64,000 bases of DNA. Origin: Sphingomonas naphthae. GTDB taxonomy: Bacteria > Pseudomonadota > Alphaproteobacteria > Sphingomonadales > Sphingomonadaceae. This document shows positions 1 through 47,626 of this stretch, piece by piece. Every line of letters begins with the position of its first letter. The stretch's first letter is position 1. The position numbers and the translations under genes are program-made. The DNA is taken from positions 3,796,501-3,860,500 of the forward strand of contig NZ_CP117411.1 in assembly GCF_028607085.1 (NCBI RefSeq), in the 5' to 3' direction. A model generated the notes under the pieces. It was not told where the DNA came from and searched no databases. It worked only from the letters and a program-made list of their open reading frames with translations.

Positions 1-933
1 GTGATCGCGGTGGCGGACAATCCGCCGCAGACCGCCGACCAGTTCGAGGCCACGATCGTGTGGATGGCCGACGAGGCGATGCTGCCCGGCCGCCCCTATT
101 GGCTGAAGCTCGGCACGCAGACGGTGAGCGCCACGATCCAGGCGCCCAAATATCAGGTCAACGTCAACACGATGGAGCAATTGGCGGCGAAAACGCTGGA
201 GCTGAACGCGATCGGCGTGGCCAATTTCGCCACCGATCGCGCCATCACGTTCGAGGCCTATCCCGCCGATCGCACGCTCGGCGGCTTCATCCTGATCGAC
301 AAGATCACCAACGCCACCGTCGGCGCGGGGATGATCCACTTCGCCCTCCGCCGCAGCCAGAACGTCCACTGGCAGGCGACCGACATCGGCCGCGAGCAGC
401 ATGCGGCGCTCAAGAACCAGAAGCCCGCCGTGCTGTGGTTCACCGGGCTTTCGGGCGCGGGCAAATCGACCATCGCCAACCTCGTCGAGAAGAAGCTGGC
501 GCGGATGAACCGCCACACCTTCCTGCTGGACGGCGACAACGTCCGCCACGGGCTCAACAAGGATCTCGGCTTCACCGATGCCGATCGGGTGGAGAATATC
601 CGCCGCGTGGGCGAGGTCGCGAAGCTGATGACCGATGCCGGGCTGATCGTCATCACCGCCTTCATCTCGCCGTTCCGCGCCGAACGGGCGATGGTGCGCG
701 GCATGATCGCGGCGGGCGAGTTCATCGAGGTGCATATCGATACGCCGCTGGCCGACGCCGAGCAGCGCGACGTGAAGGGCCTCTACGCCAAGGCGCGGGC
801 CGGGCAGCTCAAGAATTTCACCGGCATCGACAGCCCCTACGAGCCGCCCGAGGCGCCCGAAATCCGCATCCACACCACCCGCCTGACCCCCGAGGAGGCC
901 GCCGACCTGATCGTCGCGCAAATCATCCCATGA
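1..933 (+). CDS. cysNC: Bifunctional sulfate adenylyltransferase subunit 1 / adenylylsulfate kinase, C-terminal part (cut by window start)
   Basis: This is the 3' portion of a CysN-CysC fusion. CysN is the GTPase subunit of ATP sulfurylase, and CysC phosphorylates APS to PAPS in sulfate assimilation. The first ~130 visible residues match the C-terminal beta-barrel domains of CysN. From about residue 140 an APS kinase domain begins, with a Walker A loop GLSGAGKS near residues 149-156, a [10 protein letters not shown] motif near 177, and FISPFR, which carries the serine region of APS kinases. The GTPase domain lies upstream of the window, so the GTG at base 1 is only the first codon visible and not the true start. 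The stop overlaps the next gene by ATGA, consistent with a cysDNC-cysQ operon. Confidence 0.95.
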
Positions 934-16512: not shown

Positions 16513-16640
16513 ATCCTCACCGGCACGGGGAGGGCGACCGTCGCGCAGCGATGGTGGAGGGGGCGATCCACGATCGCCGCGCTTCGGGGAGAGCCCCCTC
16601 CGTCACGCTTCGCGCGCCACCTCCCCGTGCCGGGGAGGAT
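16513..16640. repeat. Palindromic repeat, family B
   Basis: A ~128-base element bounded by CTCACCGGCACGGGGAGG and CCTCCCCGTGCCGGGGAGGA, with an internal ATGGTGGAGG/CCCCCTCCGTCACGC part. Related copies lie at 18522, 42998 and 47501, and half copies at 29361 and 59425. Confidence 0.8.
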
Positions 16641-18521: not shown

Positions 18522-18642
18522 ATTCTCCCCTCCAAGGGGAGGTGGCAGCCCGCAGGGCTGACGGAGGGGTATCGCCCTATCGAGAACGGGTCACCCCTCC
18601 ACCATCGCTCCGCGATGGTCCCCCTCCCCTTGCAGGGGAGGA
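18522..18642. repeat. Palindromic repeat, family B
   Basis: A ~120-base element starting TCTCCCCTCCAAGGGGAGG, passing through GACGGAGGGGTATCGC and TCACCCCTCCACCATCGC, and ending CCTTGCAGGGGAGGA. It lies between the araC-type gene start and the acnA terminator; the rest of the 18438-18696 gap shows no gene. Confidence 0.85.
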
Positions 18643-39545: not shown

Positions 39546-40625
39546 ATGACCGACCTCGACACACTGAAGGCCGCGCTGACCGCGCAGGCCGACGCCGCGC
39601 CGGACCTCGCCGCGCTGGAGGCGCTGCGCGTCTCGGCGCTGGGCAAGAGCGGGCAGGTGACCGCCCTCCTCAAGACGCTGGGCGGCATGAGCCCCGAGGC
39701 GCGCCAGAGCGAGGGGCCGCGCATCAACGGGCTGCGCGAGGCCGTCACCACCGCCATCGCCGCCCGCAAGGCCGTGCTGGATGCCGCCGCGCTGGAGGTG
39801 AAGCTGGCCGCCGAGGCGATCGACATGACCCTGCCGGTCGCGCCCGCGCCGCAGGGCTCGGTCCACCCGGTCAGCCAGGTGATGGACGAACTGGCCGAGA
39901 TTTTCGCCGACCTGGGCTTCGCCGTGGCGACCGGCCCCGAGATCGAGGACGACTGGCACAATTTCACCGCGCTCAACATCCCGGAGACCCATCCGGCGCG
40001 CGCGATGCACGACACTTTCTACTTCGACCGGGTCGATGGCGAGGGGCGCAAGATGCTGCTCCGCACCCACACCTCCCCGGTGCAGATCCGCACGATGACC
40101 ACGCAGGCCCCGCCGATCCGCGTGATCGCGCCCGGCCGGGTCTATCGATCGGACAGCGACGCGACCCATACGCCGATGTTCCACCAGATCGAGGGTCTGG
40201 TGATCGATCGCGGCATCACCATGGGCCACCTCAAATGGACGCTGGAGACCTTCCTCAAGGCCTTCTTCGAGCGCGACGATATCGTCCTGCGCCTGCGCCC
40301 CAGCTATTTCCCCTTCACCGAGCCGTCCGCCGAGGTGGATGTCGGTTACTCGATCGAGAACGGCCGCCGCGTGATCGGCGGATCGGAGGGCTGGATGGAG
40401 GTACTGGGTTCCGGCATGGTCCACCCCAAGGTGATCGCGGCCGCCGGGCTCGATCCGGCCGAATGGCAGGGTTTCGCCTTCGGCACCGGAGTCGATCGGC
40501 TCGCGATGCTGAAGTATGGCATGGATGATCTCAGGCCCTTCTTCGACGGCGATCTGCGCTGGCTGAAGCATCATGGTTTCGCGGCACTCGACGTGCCCAC
40601 GCTTTCGGGGGGGATCGGCGCATGA
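39546..40625 (+). CDS. pheS: Phenylalanyl-tRNA synthetase alpha subunit
   Basis: A 359-residue catalytic subunit of the (alpha-beta)2 class II synthetase. Motif 2 ([29 protein letters not shown]) and motif 3 ([19 protein letters not shown]) are intact, together with the Phe-binding region [14 protein letters not shown]. It overlaps pheT by ATGA. Confidence 0.98.
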
Positions 40626-42991
40626 AGTTCACCCTCGGCTGGCTGCGCGAGCATCTCGAGACCAGCGCCTCGCTCGACGAGATCGTCGATGCGCTCACCC
40701 GCGTCGGCCTCGAAGTGGAAGGGGTCGACGATCCCGCCGCGCGCCTCGCCCCCTTCGTCATCGCCCGCGTCCTGACAGCCGAGCGCCATCCGCAGGCGGA
40801 CAAGTTGCAGGTGCTGACCGTCGCGGTGGGTGACGGCGATGCCGTGCAGGTCGTGTGCGGCGCGCCCAACGCGCGCGCGGGCTTGGTCGGCGTGTTCGGC
40901 GCGCCGGGCACCTATGTGCCGGGACTCGACGTGACGCTGAAGGTGGCGGCGATCCGCGGTGTCGAGAGCCGCGGCATGATGTGTTCGATGCGCGAACTGG
41001 AATTGTCCGACGCGCATGAGGGCATCATCGAGCTGCCCGCCGACGCGCCGATCGGCGCGCGCTACGCCGATTGGGCCGAGCTGGGCGATCCGATGATCGA
41101 GGTGGCGATCACCCCCAACCGGCAGGATTGCATGGGCGTGCGCGGCATCGCCCGCGACCTCGCCGCCGCCGGCCTCGGCACATTGAAGCCGCTGATCGTG
41201 CCGACGATCAAGCCCGAATTCCCATGCCCCGTCGAGATCGCGACCGAGGATTCCGAGGGCTGCCCCGCCTTCTTCGGCCGGGTGGTGAAGGGCGTCGCCA
41301 ACGGCGCCTCGCCCGACTGGATGGCCAAGCGGCTGATCGCGGTCGGCCAGCGGCCGATCTCGGCGCTGGTCGACATCACCAATTATGTGATGCTCGATCT
41401 CGGCCGGCCGCTCCATGTCTATGACGTGGCGAAGCTCACCGGGCGCCTGGTGGCCCGCAAGGCGCGCGACGGCGAGAGCCTCGTCGCGCTCAACGGCAAG
41501 AGCTATGCGCTCACCCCGGCGATGACGGTCATCGCCGACGACGCGCATGTCCACGATATCGGCGGCATCATGGGCGGCGAAGGATCGGGCGTCTCCGAGA
41601 CGACGACCGATGTGCTGATCGAATGCGCTTACTTCACGCCCGAGACGATCGCGCGGACGGGGCAGGCGCTCGGCCTCACCTCCGATGCGCGCCAGCGGTT
41701 CGAGCGCGGCGTCGATCCCGCTTTCCTCGCCGACGGGCTCGCCATCGCGACCCAGCTGGTCAAGGCGATCTGTGGCGGCGCGCCCTCCGAGGCGATCGAG
41801 GCGGGCGAGCCCCCGCTCCAGCGCCAGACGATGCGCTACGATCCGGCGCTGACCGAGAAGCTCGCCGGCCTCGCCGTGCCCGCCGATCGCCAGCGCCAGA
41901 TCCTCGCCAGCCTCGGCTTCGCGCTGGATGGTGCGTGGAACGTACTGCCGCCGACGTGGCGCCGCGACGTGGACGGCCCCGCCGATCTGGTCGAGGAGGT
42001 CATCCGTATCGTCGGGCTCGATCACGTCCCCTCCACCCCGCTGCCGCGCATGGACGGCGTCGCACGGCCGACCGCCACGCCTGCGCAGAAGATCGAGCGC
42101 GCCGTCCGCCGCGCCGCCGCCGCGCGCGGCCTGAACGAAGCGGTCACGTGGAGCTTCATCGCCGAGGGCGACGCCGCCATCTTCGGCGGCGGCGCGTGGA
42201 CGCTCGCCAATCCGATCAGCGAAGACCTGAAGGTGATGCGCCCGACCTTGCTGTCGGGCCTCGCCGCCGCCGCGCGCCGCAATCTCGATCGCGGTGCCGC
42301 CAGCGTGCGCCTGTTCGAACTCGGCCGCCGCTATCTGGCCGATGCTGAGCGGCCCACCCTCGGCCTGCTGCTGGCCGGCGAGCGCAGCCCGCGCGACTGG
42401 CGCGGCGGCAAGGCAGCGGGCTTCGACGCCTATGACGCCAAGGCCGAGGCGCTGGCGCTGCTCGCGGTCGCGGGCGCGCCCGCCGATCGGCTGATGGTGA
42501 TGCCGGCGGTGTCCAACGTCTACCACCCCGGCCGGTCGGGCTCGCTCCGGCTCGGGCCGAAGGTGGTGCTGGCCGAATTCGGCGAACTGCACCCGACGAC
42601 CCTCAAGGCGCTCGATCTAGACGGGCCGGTGATCGCGGCGGAAATCTTCCTCGACGCGATCCCCGCCAAACGCGACACCGGCCGGATGCGCAGCGCCTAC
42701 GCGCCCCCGGCGTTGCAGGCGGTGACCCGCGACTTCGCCTTCCTCATCCCCGCCGACAAGCCGGCCGAGGATCTGCTGCGCGCGGTGCGCGGCGCGGACA
42801 AGGCGGCGATCACCGACGTGGCCCTGTTCGACGTGTTCGTCGGCACGGGCGTGCCCGAGGGCCAGAAATCGGTCGCGATCGGCGTGACCCTGCAACCGGC
42901 GGAGAAGAGCTTCACCGATGCCGAGCTGAAGGCGGTCGCGGAAAAGATCGTCGCGGCGGCGGGCAAGGCCGGCGCGGTGTTGCGCGGCTAA
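40622..42991 (+). CDS. pheT: Phenylalanyl-tRNA synthetase beta subunit
   Basis: A 789-residue subunit. In order: an N-terminal OB-fold tRNA-binding domain (residues ~40-150, [17 protein letters not shown]), B3/B4 editing domain (~200-390), B5 domain (~400-470), a degenerate class II core (~480-690) and a C-terminal anticodon-binding (FDX-ACB) domain ending [12 protein letters not shown]. The length is typical (E. coli 795). It is coupled to pheS. The transcript probably ends within the repeat region downstream. Confidence 0.98.
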
Positions 42992-42997
42992 TTCCAA

Positions 42998-43184
42998 ATC
43001 CTCCCCTGCAAGGGGAGGTGGCATGTCGCAGACATGACGGAGGGGTATCGCGCTATTGGAGAGCGCGTCACCCCTCCACCACCGCCTGCGGCGGCGGTCC
43101 AGTTTCAGGTCGATCATGCCCCCGGCAATCCAAGATCATGCCGGGGGCATGATCGACCCGAAACTCACCTTACAAGGGAGGAAT
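42998..43184. repeat. Palindromic repeat, family B, interrupted by another palindrome
   Basis: The family B element begins ATCCTCCCCTGCAAGGGGAGG and passes through GACGGAGGGGTATCGC and TCACCCCTCCACC. The expected closing CCCTCCCCTTGCAGGGGAGG is broken: 43101-43165 contains a different 65-base palindrome, after which only ACAAGGGAGGA remains. Confidence 0.8.
43101..43165. repeat. Perfect-looking 27-base inverted repeat nested in family B element
   Basis: Arms 43101-43127 and 43139-43165 pair at 26 of 27 positions around an 11-base loop (core GATCATGCCCCCGGCA). No other copy was seen in the window. Its position inside another repeat suggests a later insertion. Confidence 0.8.
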
Positions 43185-43643
43185 TTACTCCTCCTCGCCC
43201 TTGGCCGGCGGACAGGCGCATTTCGCGGCCGCCTTGCGCGCCACCCGCGTGGCGGCGAACTCCGCCGGCGTCAGCGCGCCCGATCTGTCCGCATCGGCAC
43301 CGTCGAATTTGGTGAGCGACTTCACCGCCCATTCCTCGAAGCTCAGCCGCCCATCCCCGTTCGCATCCAGCCGGGCGAACGCCTTGCGGCGCGGCGCCAG
43401 ATATTCCTCGCGCGCGATCTTTCCGTCCTTGTCCTTGTCGTTGCGGGCAAAGCGGCGCTCCTCGCGCGTCTTTTCGCTGGCGGGCGGGGGGAGGGGATCG
43501 TCGGCGTCGGCAACGGGTGCGCCGGCCAGCAGCGAGGGCGCGCGGCCGATCGGCGTGTCGGCGACGGCGCGGCTCTTCCACCACAAGGCGCCCGCCGTCA
43601 CCAGCAGCAGCGCCCCCACGGCCCCGACCAGATAGCGCCACAT
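43185..43643 (-). CDS. EF-hand calcium-binding membrane-anchored protein
   Basis: A 152-residue protein with an N-terminal membrane helix (~4-22) and three EF-hand loops: residues 69-80 (DKDKDGKIAREE), 93-104 (DANGDGRLSFEE) and 117-128 (DADRSGALTPAE). All keep the acidic position 12. The helix suggests the loops face the periplasm. Similar short EF-hand proteins are common in this lineage; the role is unknown, with calcium sensing or storage possible. A Cys pair (CAC) lies near the C-terminus. Confidence 0.88.
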   Translation of the reverse strand: MWRYLVGAVGALLLVTAGALWWKSRAVADTPIGRAPSLLAGAPVADADDPLPPPASEKTREERRFARNDKDKDGKIAREEYLAPRRKAFARLDANGDGRLSFEEWAVKSLTKFDGADADRSGALTPAEFAATRVARKAAAKCACPPAKGEEE

Positions 43644-47500: not shown

Positions 47501-47626
47501 ATCCTCCCCGGCAAGGGGAGGGGGACCGCCGCCGTAGGCGGGGGTGGAGGGGTGACCCGCTATCGATGGCGGGTCACCCCTCCGTCAGCACTGCGTGCCG
47601 CCACCTCCCCTTGCAGGGGAGGATTT
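47501..47626. repeat. Palindromic repeat, family B
   Basis: Bounded by ATCCTCCCCGGCAAGGGGAGG and CCTCCCCTTGCAGGGGAGGA, with GGTGGAGGGGTGACCCGC and GGGTCACCCCTCCGTC inside. It separates ftsB from eno in a 227-base gap that holds no other feature I can name. Confidence 0.85.

Follow-up and report, generated by a model that had tools for sequence, protein, structure and literature searches.

In the genome of Sphingomonas naphthae (G000) one palindromic repeat lies inside another downstream of pheT, and the question is what the inner palindrome is and how it came to lie there. The window, that is the whole stretch of 64,000 nucleotides analysed here, corresponds to C1:3796501-3860500 of this genome. 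The answer that we regard as likely is that the inner palindrome is a copy of a small mobile element, made of a pair of hairpins with an outer stem, which replaces about 4 nucleotides of its target.

The nested palindrome and its locus

The earlier note on this DNA had described an inverted repeat with arms matching at 26 of 27 positions within a repeat termed family B, and an inverted-repeat search found exactly this: arms of 27 nt at 43101-43127 and 43139-43165, 26/27 complementary (96%), with 11 nt between them. A search with the 21-nt stretch 43100-43120 that allowed up to 3 mismatches matched the two arms only (maximum of 0 in 100 shuffles), and the 65 nt of this copy fold as single-stranded DNA with -34.5 kcal/mol and a z of -11.3. 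The locus is composed as follows:

40622..42991, + strand: upstream ORF of 789 aa, phenylalanine--tRNA ligase subunit beta (pheT; TIGR00472, 653.9 bits, cut-off 402.65)
42998..43100, + strand: left part of the family B host repeat
43101..43165, - strand: inner element, window copy, 65 nt, in forward orientation on the - strand
43166..43184, + strand: closing hairpin of the family B host repeat, with point changes
43185..43643, - strand: convergent ORF of 152 aa, EF-hand protein

The host repeat has pheT on one side and the convergent EF-hand ORF on the other. Family B occupies at least 40 places in this genome (40 of 104 candidates scored, as counted from the table), and its end hairpins recur in the window near 16.5, 18.5 and 47.5 kb. 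The corresponding family B repeats lie at 16514-16639, 18523-18642 and 47502-47623, and the model of the element described below places it at 43101-43165 only. An empty family B site, which the earlier note had suggested looking for, was found in L025 with 95% identity over the 105 nt searched. The closing part of the host repeat had been called truncated; this wording did not hold, as what is seen there is the loss of about 4 host nucleotides at the junction between 43100 and 43166 and a few point changes in the closing hairpin.

Copies of the element and their distribution

BLAST and a covariance model (R1) located the element at three places in the genome, so that the further copies that had been proposed as a check do exist. 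They are the window copy, which scored 63.9 bits on the - strand and 43.6 bits on the + strand, C1:3555156-3555219, which interrupts a second family B repeat at the identical position in the opposite orientation, and C1:3059755-3059818, whose host is a different repeat (GCCCCTCTCC...GGGTTGGGGGTGGGG). BLAST against 149 genomes of the family, with six candidates scored per genome, gave matches at E<=1e-6 in 11 genomes. With R1, 44 of 298 family genomes (E<=1e-4), belonging to 19 of 96 genera, proved to carry the element, with 1 to 17 matches in each; in this search stricter filters applied, 17 candidates were scored per genome and both strands of one place may count. The family was taken as Sphingomonadaceae from the named relatives. 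In a sample of the class (385 genomes, some of the own family included) the element was present in two at E<=1e-5, both of the own family. Sphingomonas parapaucimobilis YK209 is a named carrier: the plasmid searches matched 3 and 6 records, every one from S. parapaucimobilis, and the three examined were of strain YK209. A phage search with one query gave no match.

The window locus was also looked for elsewhere. Among 44 listed relatives of the EF-hand gene, two were weak and non-sphingomonad, and the element was found in none of the 42 loci searched; in the 230 nt past the EF-hand match, inspected by eye at 15 loci, neither family B nor pheT was seen. At the window locus, the one tried, no orthologous site was met in both filled and empty form.

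For the counts given below we used a set of 103 copies from 25 genomes. It was built from 158 model matches, which reduced to 87 when the better strand per place was kept, and from 17 of the 22 loci L054-L075, with one duplicate removed. L057 and L067 (the same places as L128 and L127), L060, L063 and L069 were left out, L060 for sharing its site with L061 in a related genome. The 80 stretches examined were picked, non-randomly, from the best-listed matches.

Structure of the element

The canonical copy is 64 nt long, a length found in 90 of the 103 copies, and consists in order of one side of the outer stem (10 nt), C, a first hairpin (9+CCC+9), T, a second hairpin (9+GGG+9) and the other side of the outer stem (10 nt). 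Aligned to the model, the window copy reads:

43156..43165, - strand: outer stem, 5' side, AGTTTCGGGT, followed by the linker C at 43155
43134..43154, - strand: hairpin 1, GATCATGCC - CCC loop - GGCATGATC, followed by the linker T at 43133
43121..43132, - strand: hairpin 2, 5' arm TGGATTGCC and GGG loop
43101..43120, - strand: overwritten 3' side, GGCATGATCGACCTGAAACT, where the hairpin 2 arm GGCAATCCA and ACCC would be expected

A total of 25 copies from 11 genomes could be aligned, and 17 of these, from 8 genomes, were gap-free at 64 nt (alignment A2, 16 distinct rows). In A2 97.8% of the cells pair, both sides have changed in 19 of 28 pairs, and the covariation is 0.654 against 0.207 in shuffled alignments (0/500 shuffles). 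When the partners were slid by 1-3 columns, pairing dropped to 28-41%, a control biased in favour of the structure, which was read from those same sequences; rows of one genome are, moreover, related. Among the 90 copies of 64 nt, 99.1% of hairpin 1, 98.6% of hairpin 2 and 95.3% of the outer stem are paired (G-U allowed); the foot is GGGTC in 57 and AGGTC in 25, loop 1 is CCC in 86 and loop 2 is GGG in 87. Since the tips of the two hairpins are complementary to each other, one long hairpin is an alternative fold: in DNA folds of four copies, the cloverleaf was preferred by L005 and L061 and the long hairpin by L002 and the window copy. No Rfam family was matched at the gathering cut-off; the six weak matches, five of them to microRNA families, were at chance level (best 27.1 bits against 80).

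Host repeats and loss of target nucleotides

The element was found in several different host repeats, and empty copies of the hosts exist in the same genomes. A rough classification of the flanks of the 103 copies by regular expressions gave 41 A-like (GGGG^GGGTTGGG), 11 family B, 8 of ggagggg type, 4 CGTC-like and 39 other, the last comprising by eye more G/C-rich hairpins and the rpoA copies treated below. Relative to family B both orientations occur (L001, the window copy, versus L002). A separate observation concerns L175, L177 and L179 in G167, whose hosts have a gcgaaag loop and resemble CGTC-tagged REPs, seemingly one REP class within another.

Empty sites were identified by comparing 14 nt on either flank, without gaps, with the DNA available from that genome, k being the number of missing host nucleotides. 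This ungapped scan replaced a gapped aligner, which gave k=4 in 35/82 and k=0 in 16/82 copies, because G and C runs led to doubtful gaps. With k from 0 to 8 an empty site was obtained for 55/103 copies, five tied and 50 unique; the unique values were 4 nt in 29, 3 in 13, 2 in 4 and 5 in 4. The range was widened to -9..14 so that target duplications could show, and 56 copies then had a site, seven tied and 49 unique (4 in 27, 3 in 13, 2 in 4, 5 in 4 and -9 in 1), leaving 47/103 without an empty site. The value of k is soft, as many hosts are G or C runs. For the window copy k is 4 against the empty site L043, with 25/28 letters in agreement, where the gapped aligner had given k=0. About 4 target nucleotides are therefore lost at most of the insertions that could be compared.

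We looked at whether the targets are hairpins. At 37 distinct empty host sites, the pairing probability averaged 0.86 over the replaced nucleotides, with 26/37 at 0.8 or above, versus a mean of 0.55 and 20% at or above 0.8 for random sites (n=959). When the flanks were joined, the test for a hairpin gave 66/103 copies against 301/510 mismatched pairs and 138/289 random sites, a small or absent difference, and a second test of this kind gave no signal (21/103 against 130/618), probably because insertion destroys the very hairpin under test. The four sites in the rpoA copy are not strongly paired (probability 0.02-0.58) or hairpin-like, which makes hairpin targets no more than a preference.

Candidate mover

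The earlier note had seen no transposase in the window and had proposed a RAYT-type factor acting from elsewhere. For the Y1 family, which is what our search covered, the first statement held, the one match in the genome lying far from the window: a RAYT-like ORF of 222 aa at C1:1008540-1008944 (L076, L200). Its protein passes the PF01797 cut-off (34.1 bits, cut-off 23) and falls below that of NF047646 (71.7 bits, cut-off 80), and it is not flanked by the element, as neither of the two inverted repeats near it corresponds to it. That the element is a classic REPIN moved by the RAYT (Y1 transposase) of its own genome would fit this gene and the inverted pair of hairpins, as in REPINs. It would also fit the distribution of NF047646 matches (E<=1e-8), present in 25/298 genomes, 12 of which also carry the element versus about 3.7 expected (Fisher p=3e-5, uncorrected for relatedness). 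However, none of 27 RAYT-like loci, 2-3.4 kb long, gave a match to R1, and 28 of the 44 element-bearing genomes have no Y1_Tnp (PF01797) match at E<=0.001, among them G203, which has four copies in a broken rpoA, and G111, G167 and G052 with 14, 12 and 9 element matches. The comparison set includes, non-randomly, all 13 element-free genomes with known RAYT-like genes, so its 15/44 is no background rate. The foot other than GTAG and the removal of target nucleotides also speak against a RAYT. As mover it is weakly supported and we judge this explanation unlikely; a RAYT may assist, or may have been there in the past, but does not explain the distribution of the element.

Composites, the broken rpoA copy and insertions within genes

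Host and insert often recur together: composites, mostly of 160-210 nt and about 70-97% identical, are repeated within genomes, and because host and insert are the same in many copies of a given genome, the number of copies exceeds that of independent insertions. These composites, together with the strong covariation, are what would be seen if the inner hairpin pair served the host repeats as a structural or RNA-regulatory domain, spread only by composite duplication or gene conversion; the lack of an Rfam family at threshold has little weight for or against this. Yet the same element occurs in unrelated hosts, CGTC-like hairpins included, it sits in both orientations in family B, and four copies of it lie in a broken copy of rpoA, which makes a mere domain of the hosts quite improbable.

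This last case is found in G203, a genome of one contig, where a truncated and broken rpoA copy (L141, C1:2132400-2133900) lies about 5.4 kb from the intact rpoA (L188; NF003513, 525 bits, cut-off 302). The broken copy contains four elements, of which one is inverted relative to the other three; their stem sequences differ from one another and still pair almost perfectly. Read from the alignment, about 4, 4, 4 and 5 nucleotides are missing at the four sites, provided that for two of the elements the complementary end bases are assigned to the element; under the fixed boundaries of the model the values are 4, 2, 2 and 5. The several host repeats, the empty host copies and these four insertions support the view that it was the inner of the two nested repeats that was mobile after the other was in place, where the earlier note had said at least one of them.

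The element is also found within reading frames. In S. parapaucimobilis YK209 three of the four places read fall within coding sequences, annotated as cobN, glyS and cysteine desulfurase (L266, L267, L268), and the annotated frame is unbroken in each. A composite was observed as well inside one and the same ORF in two genera, at L115 680-743 (G154) and L161 583-646 (G265), open through the stretch read; the ORF resembles biotin carboxylase subunits with model scores short of the cut-offs, being a fragment with the insert, and in this pair, the single orthologous one compared, both members have the element. In all five in-ORF cases the ORF is open in the stretch read and the insert is a host-plus-insert composite. 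An insert of 64 nt minus 4 lost nucleotides is a net gain of 60, which would keep the reading frame.

A proposed fold-back in the window copy

The window copy departs from the canonical form at one end. On the - strand its 5' part is canonical, and its final 20 nt complement its initial 20 nt with one base differing, so that one side has been overwritten by the complement of the other and the ends pair at 10/10 outer and 10/10 inner positions (G-T allowed). This end-to-end pairing occurs in 3/103 copies (L001, L161, L173). Fold-back and template switching are familiar from quasi-palindromes, and the simplest reading of the window copy is a later fold-back (template switch) at the complementary tips, which would have produced the 27-nt arms; with the end of the copy made from its start in this manner, the arms are a late, secondary feature. 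The overwritten side and its rarity are also what a one-off local inversion or fold-back confined to the window would leave, an origin that is next to impossible for the element as a whole, refuted as it is by two more places in the same genome and dozens in the family with the two-hairpin form.

Relation to known elements

As far as the consulted parts of PMC3116915 and PMC3733652 go, the closest known systems are REPINs, dimers of GTAG-tagged REPs in which, as here, the mobile unit is two inverted REP hairpins with compensatory changes. Their size is similar, the first residues of the two GI 16-mers being 71 bp apart. The element differs from GTAG REPINs in its foot (GGGTC/AGGTC, not GTAG), its 1-nt spacer, its additional 10-bp outer stem, the loss of target nucleotides and the lack of a linked RAYT (27 loci, Y1-type search). 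REPIN copy numbers often exceed 100; for the element at least 1 to 17 matches were counted in each genome that carries it, with no more than 17 candidates scored per genome.

The CGTC-tagged REPs of Alphaproteobacteria are also similar, according to the portions of PMC3733652 considered here: they have 8-9 bp stems, form mainly head-head dimers, also occur within ORFs and have no dedicated transposase known, just as no Y1-type one was found linked to the element. They differ in the CGTC (or TGTC, CCTC) foot, in loops of 4-5 nt instead of 3 and in a CCA-like tail in place of the single-base linker. The same portions describe GTAG and CGTC REPs, head-head heterodimers, intragenic REPs and REP dimers within other palindromes, such as the CGTC-1 dimers of H. 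neapolitanus, and therefore a nested REP pair like ours is already known in kind. The foot and the cloverleaf of the element, a count of lost target letters, one element in several host REP families and a case such as rpoA were not met in these portions.

Insertion of mobile DNA into REPs has precedents too. In what was seen of Tobes and Pareja (PMC1525189), REPs act as insertion hot spots with a fixed point of entry, as for the element, although those cases are full IS elements and ISRm22 has direct repeats at its target where the element loses nucleotides. Rickettsia palindromic elements, as cited in the part of PMC3733652 at hand, are inserted in frame within genes; the likeness would lie in placement within genes, and our in-frame cases are host-plus-insert composites. 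The target duplication of MITEs is not found, as 48 of the 49 unique k values are 2-5 missing nucleotides and one is -9. Keyword searches of the open-licence PMC literature listed no publication describing an element of this kind in sphingomonads.

A probable mobile hairpin pair in sphingomonads

The structure is conserved, the hosts are several and unrelated, and empty sites exist. The element is probably a mobile, REPIN-like hairpin pair: two inverted REP-type hairpins with a one-base joint, closed by a 10-bp outer stem, in which the letters vary and complementarity is kept. Its movement would be in trans, in the form of a folded single strand, and it would preferentially enter paired arms of hairpin repeats already present; such sites are plentiful, and insertion there is probably harmless. 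The composite of host and insert would then be amplified further. More tentatively, and with considerable doubt, it could represent a third class of tagged REP pair with no dedicated transposase, a cloverleaf of DNA that replaces four nucleotides, prefers the stems of other hairpins and perhaps relies on enzymes of replication or repair that work on folded single-stranded DNA. The empty sites, the counted loss of target letters and the four insertions in one broken gene provide a handle that is testable in laboratory sphingomonads.
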